Origin: Vulcanimicrobiota bacterium
GTDB taxonomy: Bacteria; Vulcanimicrobiota; Vulcanimicrobiia; Eremiobacterales; Eremiobacteraceae
Assembly: GCA_019235715.1 (NCBI GenBank)
Contig: JAFAKE010000104.1
Location: 1 to 32,730, forward strand
Direction: 5' to 3'
Length of the DNA: 32,730 nt
Positions 24,497 through 29,095 of the stretch are shown piece by piece. Every line of letters starts with the position of its first letter. Position 1 is the stretch's first letter. A program made the position numbers and the translations under genes. The notes beneath the pieces are model-generated. The model did no database searches. It saw only the letters and a list, made by a program, of their open reading frames with translations, and was not told the origin of the DNA.

Positions 24497-25456
24497 GTGC
24501 CCTTGGCGCGCGCTGAATCAGAAACGCGGATGAGCATGCGCGGTCTCGATGACCGCGTGCGCTTATTCGGCGAGCTCGACGGCAACCTGACGCATCTGGA
24601 ACGCGGCGCCGGCGTCGCCCTGCACGTCGATGGCGATGAGGTCGTCATCACGGGCGACGCGAAACGCGTCGCGATCGCATCGGCGGCGCTCGAAGGGCTT
24701 ATCAAGGCGGCGCGGTCCGGCTCCGACGTCACCGCGCTTGACGTGGAGCTCGCGCTACGCGCCGCGCGCGACGGCCTGGAGGTCGAGGCCCCCGAAGGAT
24801 CCCTGGCGACGACGCGCCGTGGCCGTCCGATCCGTCCGCGGACGCCGGGTCAGCGCGCGCTGGTCGACGCCGTGGCGGCGAACACTCTCGTCTTCGCGAT
24901 CGGTCCGGCCGGAACGGGAAAGACGTTCCTCGCCGTGACGATGGCGCTCGCGGCACTGCGCGCGGGGCGCGTCCAACGCATCATCCTCTCGCGCCCAGCA
25001 GTCGAGGCGGGCGAAAAGCTCGGGTTCTTGCCCGGCGATCTGCAAGAGAAAGTCGATCCGTATCTGCGGCCGCTATTCGATGCGCTCGGCGAGATCCTCG
25101 AGCCGCTGGCGGTGACGCGTGCCGTCGAGCGCGGCCAGATCGAACTGGCGCCGCTCGCATACATGCGTGGACGCACGCTCTCGGATTCGTTCATCGTGCT
25201 CGACGAGGCGCAGAACACGACGAACGAGCAGATGAAGATGTTTCTGACCCGCATCGGCGCCGGCTCGCGCATGCTCGTATGCGGCGATGTCACGCAGATC
25301 GACCTGCCTTCGCAAATCGAGTCGGGGCTGGTCGCGGCGGCGCGGATGTTCGAAGGCGTCGCGGACACCGCGATCGTGCAACTGGGCGATGCCGACATCG
25401 TCCGCCATCCGTTGATCCGGCGCATCATCGATGCGTATCAGCGTGGGCGCCGTTAA
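24497..25456 (+). CDS. PhoH-family ATPase (YbeZ type)
   Basis: A 319-aa cytoplasmic P-loop ATPase. An N-terminal domain of about 105 residues contains RLFGELDGNLTHLERG. The ATPase core has Walker A GPAGTGKT (136-143), the sensor-like GEKLGFLPGDLQEKVDPYLRP region, Walker B FIVLDEAQN (232-240), and a later MLVCGDVTQIDLP. The YbeZ group is linked to the RNase YbeY, whose gene follows and overlaps, suggesting a shared role in rRNA processing and quality control. GTG 24497 is the longest start; ATG 24530 or 24536 are equally possible. It begins 17 bases after the unknown gene. No pgpH homologue lies between phoH and ybeY as in Bacillus. Confidence 0.95.
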   Translation: MPLARAESETRMSMRGLDDRVRLFGELDGNLTHLERGAGVALHVDGDEVVITGDAKRVAIASAALEGLIKAARSGSDVTALDVELALRAARDGLEVEAPEGSLATTRRGRPIRPRTPGQRALVDAVAANTLVFAIGPAGTGKTFLAVTMALAALRAGRVQRIILSRPAVEAGEKLGFLPGDLQEKVDPYLRPLFDALGEILEPLAVTRAVERGQIELAPLAYMRGRTLSDSFIVLDEAQNTTNEQMKMFLTRIGAGSRMLVCGDVTQIDLPSQIESGLVAAARMFEGVADTAIVQLGDADIVRHPLIRRIIDAYQRGRR

Positions 25457-25943
25457 AACGGAGCGTGCACGCCCCACGGGTGTGGACCGCAATGCGTCGC
25501 GCCGCGACGGACCACGCGTGTTCGTGCGCCGCGCGGCACGTGCGCCGCGCCAAACCGCGCCGTACAAGAACGCGGTGCTACGCACGCTCACGGCGGTAGC
25601 GCCGCACGTGCGCGGGGATGTCACGCTTGTGCTCACCGGCGATTCCACGGTGCGCGCGCTGAACAAACGCTATCGCGCGCGCGACGCGGCGACGGACGTG
25701 CTCGCTTTCGGGTTTTCGGAAGGTATCAACGCGGGCGAACCGTTCGGCGACGTCATCATCTCGGTGGACACCGCCCGCCGCCAAGCGCGCGAGTACGGCG
25801 CGTCAGAACGCGAGGAACTGCAGCGTCTCATCGTCCACGGCACGCTGCACTTGTGCGGATACGATCATCACGAGCGCCGCGCGGCCGCGCGCATGCACGC
25901 GCTGACGCGGCGCATGCTCAAGGACCTCGAACGCGGTGGCTGA
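25431..25943 (+). CDS. ybeY: Endoribonuclease / rRNA maturation factor YbeY
   Basis: A protein of up to 170 aa with the zinc-binding motif HGTLHLCGYDHH (three His ligands) near residue 140. Family landmarks also include LNKRYRARDAATDVLAFGF and GDVIISVDTA. YbeY processes the 3' end of 16S rRNA and helps clear defective 70S ribosomes. The start is uncertain: ATG 25431 overlaps phoH by 26 bases, but the first 29 residues are Arg-rich and unlike the family, so GTG 25482 or GTG 25518 (just before the first expected beta-strand VFVRRA) may be right. It overlaps dgkA by 8 bases. Confidence 0.93.
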   Translation: MRISVGAVKTERARPTGVDRNASRRDGPRVFVRRAARAPRQTAPYKNAVLRTLTAVAPHVRGDVTLVLTGDSTVRALNKRYRARDAATDVLAFGFSEGINAGEPFGDVIISVDTARRQAREYGASEREELQRLIVHGTLHLCGYDHHERRAAARMHALTRRMLKDLERGG

Positions 25944-26310
25944 GCGGTCTTTCGCGCGCGCTTTTGCAGACGCGATCGACGGCATTGCGACGACGCTGCG
26001 CGAGCAGCGCAACTTCCGAGTGCAACTGGCGATCGGCATTGCGGTTGCCATCGCCGCAGCGCTGCTGCGTTTTGATGCCGTCCGCTGGGCGGTGCTCGTG
26101 CTGGCGATCGGCGCGGTGCTCGCCGCCGAGCTGTTCAACACGTCGCTCGAGCGCGCGGTGGATTGCGCATCGCCGGGCACCTCACAGGCGGCGCGCGCGG
26201 CCAAGCACGCGGGCGCAGGCGCGGTGCTCGCGACAAGCGTTGCAGCTGCGCTTGCCGGTGCGATTTTGTTCGGCACGGCGCTATGGTCGCGCGTGCACGG
26301 TGCGCCGTGA
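25936..26310 (+). CDS. dgkA: Diacylglycerol / undecaprenol kinase-family membrane protein
   Basis: A 124-aa small integral membrane kinase of the DgkA family with three transmembrane helices (about 30-45, 50-65 and 95-115). E-L-F-N-T at 65-69 and Glu72, Asp76 match the catalytic core; Glu23 in REQRNF is also conserved. The family's late K-D pair reads Lys90-His91 (AKHAGAGAVL), replacing an Asp important for catalysis in E. coli. The enzyme phosphorylates diacylglycerol or undecaprenol for lipid recycling at the inner membrane. GTG 25936 overlaps ybeY by 8 bases, matching the Firmicutes order ybeY-dgkA. Confidence 0.9.
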   Translation: MAERSFARAFADAIDGIATTLREQRNFRVQLAIGIAVAIAAALLRFDAVRWAVLVLAIGAVLAAELFNTSLERAVDCASPGTSQAARAAKHAGAGAVLATSVAAALAGAILFGTALWSRVHGAP

Positions 26311-26379
26311 GCGTGCAGGCACGGACGCCCTACGCACGGGTGGAAAAAGCGGGCTGTGCGGCGAACGGCGGAGGGGTCA

Positions 26380-27708
26380 ATGTCGGATCCTAGGCTGCTC
26401 AGCCTGCTGGCCATCGCCGTCCTCGTCATCCTTTCCGCGTTCTTCAGCGCCGCCGAGGCGGCACTGTTGGCGATTTCGCGCCTGCGCGTGCTGCAGCGCA
26501 CGCAGGACGATGTCGGCAAGTCGCTCAGCAAACTGCTCGACGATCGTAACCGCTATCTGACCACAGTGCTCGTCGGCAACACCATCGTGCTGCTGTCCGC
26601 CGACTCGATCGCGACGTGGCTGGCGATCCAAGAAGGCATCGTGAGCCCCGTCCTCATCGCGACGGTCGTGATGGCGCTGCTCGTGCTGATCTTCGCCGAG
26701 ATTTTGCCCAAAATGATCGCGGTGCAAGACCCGATGCGCTGGGCACCGCGCCTGGCATGGTTCTTGCACGCAATGGCCGTGGTGCTGTCGCCGGTGACAA
26801 CCGTGTTGGTCGCGATCGCCTCGTTCATCATCAGGCTGTTCGGCGGCGATCCGAAAGCGCAGGGCCCATATGTCACCGAGGAAGACATCCGCGCGTTGGT
26901 CAGCGCCGGCGAAGAACACGGCGCCATCGAAGAGGAGGAGAAGGAGATGATTCACTCCATCTTCGAGCTGTCGGACACCGCCGTGAGCGAAGTCATGACG
27001 CCGCGCATCGACATCGTCTGCGCCGATGCCGATGCGGCCGTTTCCGCCGGCGTCGATCTTGCGATCAAAGAGGGCTATTCGAAGCTGCCCGTCTACGAAG
27101 GCAACATCGATCATATCCTCGGCGTCGTGCACGTGCGCGAGCTGCTGATCGCGCTGAGCCGGGGCGACATCGGTAAACGGCTGCGCGAGCTCATGCGCTC
27201 CATCAAGGCAATTCCTGAGACGAAGAAGGTCGACGAGCTCCTGCGCGAGATGCAGGCCGAAAAAGTTTCCGTCGCGATCGTCGTCGACGAATACGGCGGG
27301 ACGGCCGGGCTCGTCACCATGGAAGATGTCCTCGAAGAGATCGTGGGCGAGATCATGGACGAATACGACGTCGCCGAGCATGACCGCCCTGCAGAAATCA
27401 AACACCTGGCCGATGGGGAGGCGGTCGTCGACGCGCGCATGCGCATCGCCGACGTCAACGAGGAACTGGGCCTGCACCTTCCCACCGAGGACTATGAGAG
27501 CATAGGCGGATACGCGTTCGGTCAGTTCGGTCGTGTCCCGTTGCCAGGCGATGCGATTTCTCTCGGAAACGGTGATTCGCTGATCGTCGAGGAGACCGCC
27601 GGAAGAAGGTTGCGTTCCGTCCGCATCAAGAAGGCCCAGTCGACCAACGGGGCGGCCGCGACAGCGCAATCTGAGCGTGGTTCGAAGCCGTTGAACGGAT
27701 TTTTTTGA
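26380..27708 (+). CDS. CorC/HlyC-family transporter with CNNM and CBS domains
   Basis: A 442-aa protein. Residues about 1-170 are the CNNM/DUF21 membrane domain (LSAFFSAAEAALLAISRLR, then VLVGNTIVLL and FAEILPKMIAV), with three to four transmembrane helices. A pair of CBS domains follows (about 195-315, VMTPRIDIVCAD and VVDEYGGTAGLVTMEDVLEEI), then the CorC_HlyC domain (about 340-430, ADGEAVVDARMRIADVNE). The family has been linked to magnesium/cobalt efflux. The ATG at 26380 was chosen because GGAGGGG lies 6 nt upstream. It is inserted between dgkA and cdd, a position often held by other genes; the last codons include a T-run. Confidence 0.95.
   Translation: MSDPRLLSLLAIAVLVILSAFFSAAEAALLAISRLRVLQRTQDDVGKSLSKLLDDRNRYLTTVLVGNTIVLLSADSIATWLAIQEGIVSPVLIATVVMALLVLIFAEILPKMIAVQDPMRWAPRLAWFLHAMAVVLSPVTTVLVAIASFIIRLFGGDPKAQGPYVTEEDIRALVSAGEEHGAIEEEEKEMIHSIFELSDTAVSEVMTPRIDIVCADADAAVSAGVDLAIKEGYSKLPVYEGNIDHILGVVHVRELLIALSRGDIGKRLRELMRSIKAIPETKKVDELLREMQAEKVSVAIVVDEYGGTAGLVTMEDVLEEIVGEIMDEYDVAEHDRPAEIKHLADGEAVVDARMRIADVNEELGLHLPTEDYESIGGYAFGQFGRVPLPGDAISLGNGDSLIVEETAGRRLRSVRIKKAQSTNGAAATAQSERGSKPLNGFF
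27688..27706 (+). terminator. Short hairpin and T-run at the corC-like gene end
   Basis: CCGTT/AACGG (27688-27692 and 27694-27698) followed by A and seven T (27700-27706) overlaps the final codons and stop. The stem is very short with a tiny loop, so it may only reduce read-through into cdd, which begins 21 bases later. Confidence 0.3.
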
Positions 27709-27729: not shown

Positions 27730-28176
27730 GTGCCCAAACTCACCGAGACACGTATCGGCAACCTCGCGCAGAAGGCATGGGAGACCTGGCTGTTCGCGTA
27801 CGCGCCCTACTCGCAATTCCGTGTCGGCGCTGCACTGTTGGCCGCCGACGGTCGCATCTTCAGCGGCGCGAGCGTAGAGAATCCCTCGTTCGGTCTATCG
27901 ATGTGCGCGGAGCGCGTTGCGGTCGGCGCGGCCGCCGCTGCGGGTGCGCGCTCGTTCATCGCAGTCGCAGTCGCCGGGGACAATCCCGCGGGACTTATCC
28001 CTTGTGGCGCGTGCCGCCAAGTGCTCGCCGAATTCTCACCGGATCTGCTCGTGATACGCTGCCGTCCGGACGGTTCGTACGAGAAGATGAAGCTGCGCGA
28101 TCTTATGCCTTCGCCCATGACTGGCCACACCATCGAAACGCCGGATCGCGGCGGCATCGAACTCGCCGTCGGGTAG
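27730..28176 (+). CDS. cdd: Cytidine deaminase
   Basis: A 148-aa zinc enzyme that deaminates cytidine and deoxycytidine to (deoxy)uridine in pyrimidine salvage. The active-site motifs are C-A-E (Cys59, Glu61) and P-C-x-x-C (PCGACRQV, Cys92 and Cys95); the N-terminal YAPYSQFRVGAAL strand and SGASVENPSFGL match Cdd. Having Cys rather than His at position 59 fits the homotetrameric class. GTG 27730 has AGGGAG about 7 nt upstream. In Bacillus, cdd is followed by era and recO; here recO follows directly and era is absent. Confidence 0.96.
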   Translation: MPKLTETRIGNLAQKAWETWLFAYAPYSQFRVGAALLAADGRIFSGASVENPSFGLSMCAERVAVGAAAAAGARSFIAVAVAGDNPAGLIPCGACRQVLAEFSPDLLVIRCRPDGSYEKMKLRDLMPSPMTGHTIETPDRGGIELAVG

Positions 28177-28228: not shown

Positions 28229-29095
28229 ATGAGATCGTACGCGGTGGAGGCGGTCGTGTTGCGCCTGCGCCCTCTCGGCGAAGCGGATCGCATCGTCACA
28301 CTGTTCTCACGCGAGCGCGGCAAGCTGCACGCGGTCGCAAAAGGTTCGCGCCGGCCGGGCAGCCGCTTCGGCGCACGGCTTGATTTTTTCAGCCTTGTCG
28401 CTCTCGAACTGCATAAGGGCAGAAGTCTCGACGTCGTAACCGGAGCGCGCGCGGTCGTGCGCGCGCATGATGCCGGCACCGTATCGACGACCGCTTTTTG
28501 GGCGCGGCTCGTCGAGCCGCAGACGTTTGCGCTCGCATCGTATGCGGCCGAAGTCATCGATGCGCTTTCCGAGCCGGACATGGCGGTGCCTGATCTGTTC
28601 GATCTGTTATGCGAACTGCGTGACGCGATCGCCGTCGGTGTCGCCGCGGCGGTGTTGGCGCCGGCGCTCGATCTGCGTTTGCTTGCCGCGTTTGGGCTTG
28701 CGCCTGAGCTCGATGCGTGCGCCCGCTGCGGAAGCCCGCTCGGCAATCGCCCGCTGGCAGGCGGGCGAGCGCGGCTTGCGCCGGGCTCCGGCGGGTTGGT
28801 GTGCAGACGGTGCGCGATCGAAGAGACCCAGTCGCTCGGCGGCGAGCGGCGCGGCGCGACGTACTCGGTCAGCGCGACGGAGTTGACGCTGTTGCGCCGC
28901 CTTCGCACCGTGCCGCTTACGTCGTTGCTCGATCTCTTCGACGGCGACACGGCAGCGGCCGATGCGGCTCTCGCGCGGCTGCGCCGTCTTACGCGGCCGT
29001 TTGTCGAGCACCAGCTTGGGCGCCGCTCGAAAGCGCTGTCACTCGATGACGCACATCCGGGGCACGGCCCCGGCACACGCGCGGCGGCGCGATGA
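28229..29095 (+). CDS. recO: DNA repair protein RecO
   Basis: A 288-aa protein of the RecFOR pathway, which loads RecA at gapped DNA. The N-terminal OB-fold reads EAVVLRLRPLGEADRIVTLFSRERGKLHAVAKGSR (seen in parts, residues 8-42). A C-terminal zinc finger carries CARC (about 166-169) and CRRC near 191. Length and order fit RecO. The ATG at 28229 follows a 52-base gap from cdd without an obvious Shine-Dalgarno sequence. The stop overlaps the ruvX ATG in an ATGA, so the two repair/processing genes are translationally coupled. Confidence 0.94.
   Translation: MRSYAVEAVVLRLRPLGEADRIVTLFSRERGKLHAVAKGSRRPGSRFGARLDFFSLVALELHKGRSLDVVTGARAVVRAHDAGTVSTTAFWARLVEPQTFALASYAAEVIDALSEPDMAVPDLFDLLCELRDAIAVGVAAAVLAPALDLRLLAAFGLAPELDACARCGSPLGNRPLAGGRARLAPGSGGLVCRRCAIEETQSLGGERRGATYSVSATELTLLRRLRTVPLTSLLDLFDGDTAAADAALARLRRLTRPFVEHQLGRRSKALSLDDAHPGHGPGTRAAAR

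Follow-up and report, generated by a model that had tools for sequence, protein, structure and literature searches.

DgkA of Escherichia coli, called the "tiniest of kinases" by the authors who described its active site, is among the closest described systems to the protein considered here. Proteins of the DgkA/UdpK family are homotrimers whose active sites lie between subunits. In E. coli each active site is completed by the surface helix of a neighbouring subunit, and Ser17 of this helix contacts the lipid, the base of the acyl pocket being formed by Trp112 (PMC4703834). Glu69 is the proposed base, the metals are held by Glu28 and Glu76, Asn72 bridges Glu69 and Glu76, and Lys94, tethered by Asp80, touches the α-phosphate and N7, while adenine is read by the main chain at residues 85 and 87 (PMC4703834). 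Asp95, which is among the residues termed essential, forms hydrogen bonds with the two hydroxyls on the ribose of the ATP analogue and with the carbonyl of Gly91, and ribose recognition, along with the poor use of 2'-deoxy-ATP, is ascribed to it (PMC4703834). Mutants at this position behave unequally: activity is essentially abolished in Asp95Ala and reduced by 76% in Asp95Glu, whereas Asp95Asn has a minor effect (PMC4703834). An uncharged hydrogen-bonding side chain can therefore serve at position 95. By analogy, His, which is also able to form hydrogen bonds, might fit there too.

The window, a stretch of 32,730 nucleotides, contains a dgkA-family gene placed between ybeY and a gene of the CNNM/CorC type (Table 1). 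Its product covers positions 3-102 of the 102-position PF01219 profile, at 93.8 bits against a curated cut-off of 22.3, and is the single PF01219 match in the 2.5-Mb assembly; a search of NCBIfam with the protein gave no match at 0.001. The AlphaFold2 monomer model (mean pLDDT 95.1) has four helices arranged in the DgkA fold, that is, a surface helix and three transmembrane helices. With this model, Foldseek returned DgkA structures at all of ranks 1-36, five of them at E <= 0.001, the top match being chain 3ze5_C of E. coli DgkA (rmsd 1.5, TM-score by target 0.91).

Table 1. Features of the window, with positions counted from its first nucleotide; residue numbers are those of the window protein unless marked E. 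coli.
Feature	Position	Strand	Remarks
phoH	24497-25456	+	
ybeY	25431-25943	+	PF02130; upstream of the dgkA-family gene, 3' end overlapping its start
dgkA-family gene	25936-26310	+	GTG start, 124 aa; PF01219 DAGK_prokar 6.7e-27, 93.8 bits
Asp12 codon	25969-25971	+	E. coli position 16; Asp peculiar to this family among aligned sequences
Gln24 codon	26005-26007	+	E. coli Glu28
Glu65, Asn68, Glu72, Asp76	26128-26163	+	E. coli Glu69, Asn72, Glu76, Asp80; retained active-site residues
Ser83 codon	26182-26184		E. coli position 87, adenine loop
Lys90 codon	26203-26205	+	E. coli Lys94
His91 codon CAC	26206-26208	+	E. coli Asp95, ribose-binding residue
CNNM/CorC-type gene	26356-27708	+	PF01595, CBS, CorC_HlyC; downstream of the dgkA-family gene
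Cytidine deaminase gene	27730-28176	+	
recO	28229-29095	+	

Adding four to a window residue gives the E. coli number: in the phmmer alignment, window residue 24 stands opposite residue 28 of E. coli DgkA, and the profile of 45 relatives aligns with E. coli DgkA (2kdc) without a gap over 8-118. Both alignments bear out an earlier, sequence-only reading of this DNA, which had placed His91 at the position of Asp95; the local sequence is AAKHAGAGAV. That reading had also listed five kept residues, and Glu65, Asn68, Glu72 and Lys90 indeed are; its Glu23 has to be withdrawn, since E. coli Glu28 aligns with Gln24. Two usual features of DgkA/UdpK proteins are thus absent from the window protein, namely Glu at position 28 and, outside the Pfam cut-off, Asp at position 95 (E. 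coli numbering, used for positions from here on). Scored against the Pfam profile, the variant H91D gains 4.8 bits, H91N and H91E gain 1.3, and H91A loses 1.8.

The two substitutions have different distributions. Gln is found at position 28 in 12/13 members of the window's taxonomic family (a family of uncultured bacteria, hereafter the family) and in 84 of the 88 sequences with a residue there from the other families of the class (f2 and f3), as well as in 2/12 sequences from outside the phylum, and all 19 from the rest of the phylum have Glu. Since those 84 f2 and f3 sequences combine Gln28 with Asp95, Gln at position 28 is not linked to His at 95. The adenine loop also varies: at position 87 the usual His is replaced by Ser in all three members of the window's genus and by Asn in one further family member, so that 4/13 members, the window protein among them, are without it.

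The distribution of His95 was drawn from a PF01219 search of 149 genomes of the phylum (Eremiobacterota), 134 of which gave a match, and 122 of these were aligned. The 12 matching genomes left out of the alignment (G049, G066, G071, G074, G079, G080, G083, G085, G092, G093, G115, and G143) include none from the family, and G049, G066, G074, and G143 represent partial or weak matches. Position 95 is His in all 13 DgkAs of the family, which come from 13 of its 14 examined genomes and span 8 genus groups, and Asp in 109/109 aligned DgkAs from other families of the phylum. It is also Asp in 12/12 sequences taken from elsewhere, which comprise seven of Pseudomonadota, two of Bacillota, and one each of Bacteroidota, Actinomycetota, and a phage record; seven came from the 284 plasmid records that gave an E. 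coli-type match, four were the whole of a second match set, and one was drawn from three phage records. The clade-wide divergence that the sequence-only reading proposed to look for in an alignment is therefore present, with His in 13/13 within the family and in 0/121 elsewhere.

His at 95 is fixed among the examined family members, a natural replacement at a position of the nucleotide site where every other aligned sequence has Asp. A sequencing or assembly error is ruled out by its occurrence in 13 genomes and 8 genus groups with both His codons. The motif AKHAGAGAV, or a near-identical one, surrounds the His in all 13 members, which rules out a neighbouring Asp in the same helix as a stand-in for Asp95; the search for a substitute Asp nearby, suggested earlier as a check, found none, and the Asp peculiar to the family lies at position 16, far away in sequence. 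The remaining family genome, G003, listed as 96% complete, gave neither a DgkA nor a YbeY match; the dgkA-ybeY locus is probably missing from this assembly, and the empty answer weighs little.

We also looked for the His beyond these genomes. Scanning an 84,980-species collection with the patterns [PQ][LAI]AR[AS]AKHA and [EDG]Q[PRS]NFR[IR]Q[LIV][AVG], which pass over a Lys-His in another sequence context, returned seven loci, all of them known family members, so that 7 of the 13 were recovered. Two scans of viral contigs gave no relative, and tblastn of plasmids with the window protein gave no match at 1e-5. Among the DgkA papers listed by literature searches, which cover few subscription papers, no title or abstract opening mentions His at position 95, and a search for Eremiobacterota together with diacylglycerol kinase returned no paper.

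The 13 His-bearing sequences form one branch, with support of 100/96 in a 79-row tree (every second f2 row taken) and 100/98 in a 63-row tree (f2 thinned to every fifth row, f3 to two of its four, f14 left out). One Asp-to-His event therefore suffices, and a single G-to-C change is enough for it, because the codons at position 95 are CAC (10) or CAT (3) in the family and GAC or GAT in the rest of the phylum. The rows nearest to the family are short Asp95 DgkAs of sister genera. Its exact placing is unsure because inner support is weak there and long branches adjoin it (a long f14 row in the 79-row tree, a Paenibacillus row at 96/65 in the 63-row tree). Horizontal gain of another DgkA type is unsupported, given the single branch and the shared neighbours: ybeY lies 5' of dgkA at 13/13 family loci, and the CNNM gene lies 3' at 12/13, the sequence of the thirteenth locus stopping 74 bases past the DgkA domain.

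Among the 78 family pairs, the two closest have dN/dS ratios of 0.069 (G012/G005) and 0.072 (G013/G004) and the next four have ratios of 0.15-0.23, values that are rough where dS exceeds 1, as in five of these six pairs. Over all 78 pairs, pN/pS has a median of 0.49 and a maximum of 0.70. The two closest pairs are under strong purifying selection and, together with the conserved gene order, this is unlike a decaying gene.

We consider it probable, at roughly 0.6, that the window gene encodes a working small membrane lipid kinase of the DgkA/UdpK family in which a single exchange on the family's stem put His in place of the ribose-holding Asp, and in which His fills the role of Asp95. The His is confined to one clade in which all 13 members have it, against Asp in 121/121 elsewhere; dN/dS is about 0.07 in the two closest pairs; the equivalents of Glu69, Asn72, Glu76, Asp80, and Lys94 are invariant in 13/13 members; the model matches the fold of E. 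coli DgkA; in that enzyme Asp95 touches the ribose and Asp95Asn has a minor effect (PMC4703834); ybeY is the 5' neighbour at every locus; and seven proteobacterial DgkAs lie across a 100/100 branch from the family. All of these observations argue for this reading. A single G-to-C change on the stem would have turned the Asp into His and then been fixed. The side chain of window residue His91 would hydrogen-bond the ribose hydroxyls, the carbonyl of the residue at E. coli position 91, or both, as Asn can in E. coli, and catalysis would be unchanged, with Glu65 as the base together with Asn68, Glu72, and Lys90. We infer an altered ribose site in an enzyme that is active as an undecaprenol/diacylglycerol-type kinase and that presumably forms a trimer.

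Several points count against this reading. No assay of any DgkA His variant appears in the examined passages of PMC4703834, PMC7935881, and PMC6408475. His takes up more room than Asn, and Asp95Glu, with its longer side chain, costs E. coli DgkA 76% of its activity (PMC4703834). Four of the 13 members are without His87, whose backbone meets the adenine in E. coli (PMC4703834), and dN/dS is higher in the more distant family pairs. Further changes mark the clade (Asp16, Gln34, His/Arg77, Pro84, and Arg91, among others), so the site may differ from one with a simple substitution. Residues that nearly all family members have, but few DgkAs of the other families in the phylum, include Ala13, Asp16, Phe31, Gln34, Ala45, Phe50, Trp55, Gly63, Leu75, Pro84, Arg91, His95, and Gly97, of which Ala13 and Gly97 are found in 6/12 and 7/12 sequences outside the phylum, respectively. 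Position 77 is His in ten members and Arg in three, and Arg is found there once among the 109 others in the phylum.

These changes bear on what the active site might otherwise be. In an enzyme that is still active, loss of the Asp clamp could have relaxed the preference for ATP relative to dATP or other NTPs. In favour of this, Asp95 of E. coli accounts for how the ribose is recognized and why 2'-deoxy-ATP is used poorly (PMC4703834), and Arg91, Pro84, and Gly97, all near the nucleotide loop, have changed too, along with the loss of His87 in four members. We nevertheless regard such a shift as unlikely: the sequence points to no particular nucleotide, the equivalents of Lys94 and Asp80 are retained, and in E. 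coli residues 85 and 87 recognize adenine through their backbone (PMC4703834).

Asp16 is the most suggestive of the accompanying changes, being present in 13/13 family members and in none of the 119 other sequences with a residue there; it could be compensatory, and an Asp/His trade between positions 16 and 95 is possible. Less probable than a shifted preference is a rebuilt ATP-ribose pocket, in which Asp16 of the neighbouring subunit and His95 would together replace Asp95, possibly loosening the discrimination between ATP and other nucleotides. We give still less weight to a rewired subunit interface, in which the carboxylate would come from the neighbouring subunit, from Asp12 (position 16) in its surface helix, and His91 would pair with Asp12 or with the ribose. 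The completion of the active site by the neighbour's surface helix in E. coli (PMC4703834) is consistent with such an interface, as are NMR data in which a spin label at residue 24 attenuates the K94 and D95 signals, more so in undiluted samples, a pattern as for inter-subunit contacts (PMC7935881). Against it, position 16 may instead face the lipid headgroup, since the adjacent Ser17 contacts lipid in E. coli (PMC4703834), and no statistical tie between Asp16 and His95 can be drawn because both arose on the same stem branch and so amount to a single co-occurrence.

A weak or dead kinase retained for another role, for example as a structural or regulatory membrane protein, is the least probable reading: the loss of activity in Asp95Ala (PMC4703834) and the invariance of Asp in 121 other sequences would fit it, but the five active-site residues persist in 13/13 members, dN/dS is low in close pairs, the 13 family genomes that have the gene carry one copy each, Asn is tolerated at 95 in E. 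coli (PMC4703834), and loss of the base Glu69 somewhere among 13 species would be expected. Of the two outcomes offered by the sequence-only reading, weak or absent activity is accordingly disfavoured, by purifying selection, retained residues, and gene order, and so is a shift in chemistry or metal use, as in E. coli the proposed base and the metal ligands are residues other than Asp95 (PMC4703834). Its statement that this Asp is critical stands for the exchange to Ala, but the exchange to Asn has a minor effect and that to Glu costs 76% of the activity (PMC4703834).

The family then has to be placed among the known kinases. In the 63-row tree, the 100/100 branch sets the seven proteobacterial DgkAs apart from the family, the rest of the phylum, and the sequences from Bacillota, Actinomycetota, Bacteroidota, and phage. 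At residues 17 and 98 the family shares Ala with 5/5 non-proteobacterial outside sequences, against Ser in 7/7 proteobacterial ones; residue 112 is Gly in 11/13 family members and 4/5 non-proteobacterial outside sequences and Trp in 5/7 proteobacterial ones. Residue 73 is no marker of the non-proteobacterial type, Thr being found also in 3/7 proteobacterial sequences. Compared with E. coli DgkA (3ze5, 4uxx, 2kdc), the window protein has the same fold and the same Gly20, Glu69, Asn72, Glu76, Asp80, Lys94, and Ala100, but differs in Asp95 (His), Glu28 and Glu34 (both Gln), Trp112 (Gly), and Ser17, Ser73, and Ser98 (Ala, Thr, and Ala), with the 100/100 branch between them.

The DgkAs of Paenibacillus and Acetoanaerobium (L141, L142), of the undecaprenol-kinase kind, resemble the window protein in their side of the tree and in Ala17 and Ala98, whereas the window protein has His for Asp at 95, Asp16, and Gln34. 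Non-proteobacterial DgkAs of this kind share the ybeY-dgkA gene order with the family, and this order is annotated in one Bacillota and one Actinomycetota record. We take DgkA/UdpK of Bacillus subtilis to be of the same kind. Undecaprenol kinases of the DgkA family occur in Gram-positive bacteria (PMC6408475). Short DgkAs of sister genera of the same class (g10 and g29; for example L024 and L048) are, like those of the family, without a long C-terminal extension and group beside it in the trees, with weak inner support, but they retain Asp95 and have His or Tyr at position 16.

From these comparisons, the likeliest identity of the window protein is that of a non-proteobacterial undecaprenol kinase. 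Undecaprenol is favoured as its substrate because of the non-proteobacterial side of the tree, residues 17, 98, and 112, the occurrence of UppP/BacA in 13/14 family genomes, and the PAP2-like extensions of DgkAs outside the family described below. The window's own assembly gave no BacA/UppP match and no PAP2 match at 0.001, so that either the assembly has a gap or the genome truly lacks these undecaprenyl-pyrophosphate phosphatase families.

The finding is of moderate interest, mainly for specialists on DgkA-type kinases. A lineage that does without Asp95 tests the need for individual contacts in the DgkA ATP site, and ribose recognition in the DgkA family thereby becomes accessible to study with natural enzymes. 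It also advises caution in annotation, as a missing Asp95 alone is no ground to call a DgkA homologue dead.

The length of the C-terminus varies in the phylum. Short DgkAs are the rule in the family (13/13) and number 11 in f2. Seven sequences of genus g27 in f2 (L021, L039, L040, and L126-L129) have an extension of about 70-115 residues without an SGH motif, and L040, tested alone in Pfam, gave the DgkA match only. An in-frame extension with an SGH motif follows the DgkA domain in 82/109 sequences outside the family (64/85 in f2, 4/4 in f3). The extensions of three tested loci match only part of the Pfam PAP2 profile (about 48-126 of 130), suggesting that the SGH-extended DgkAs, such as L002, L006, and L013, are fusions of a kinase with half a phosphatase.
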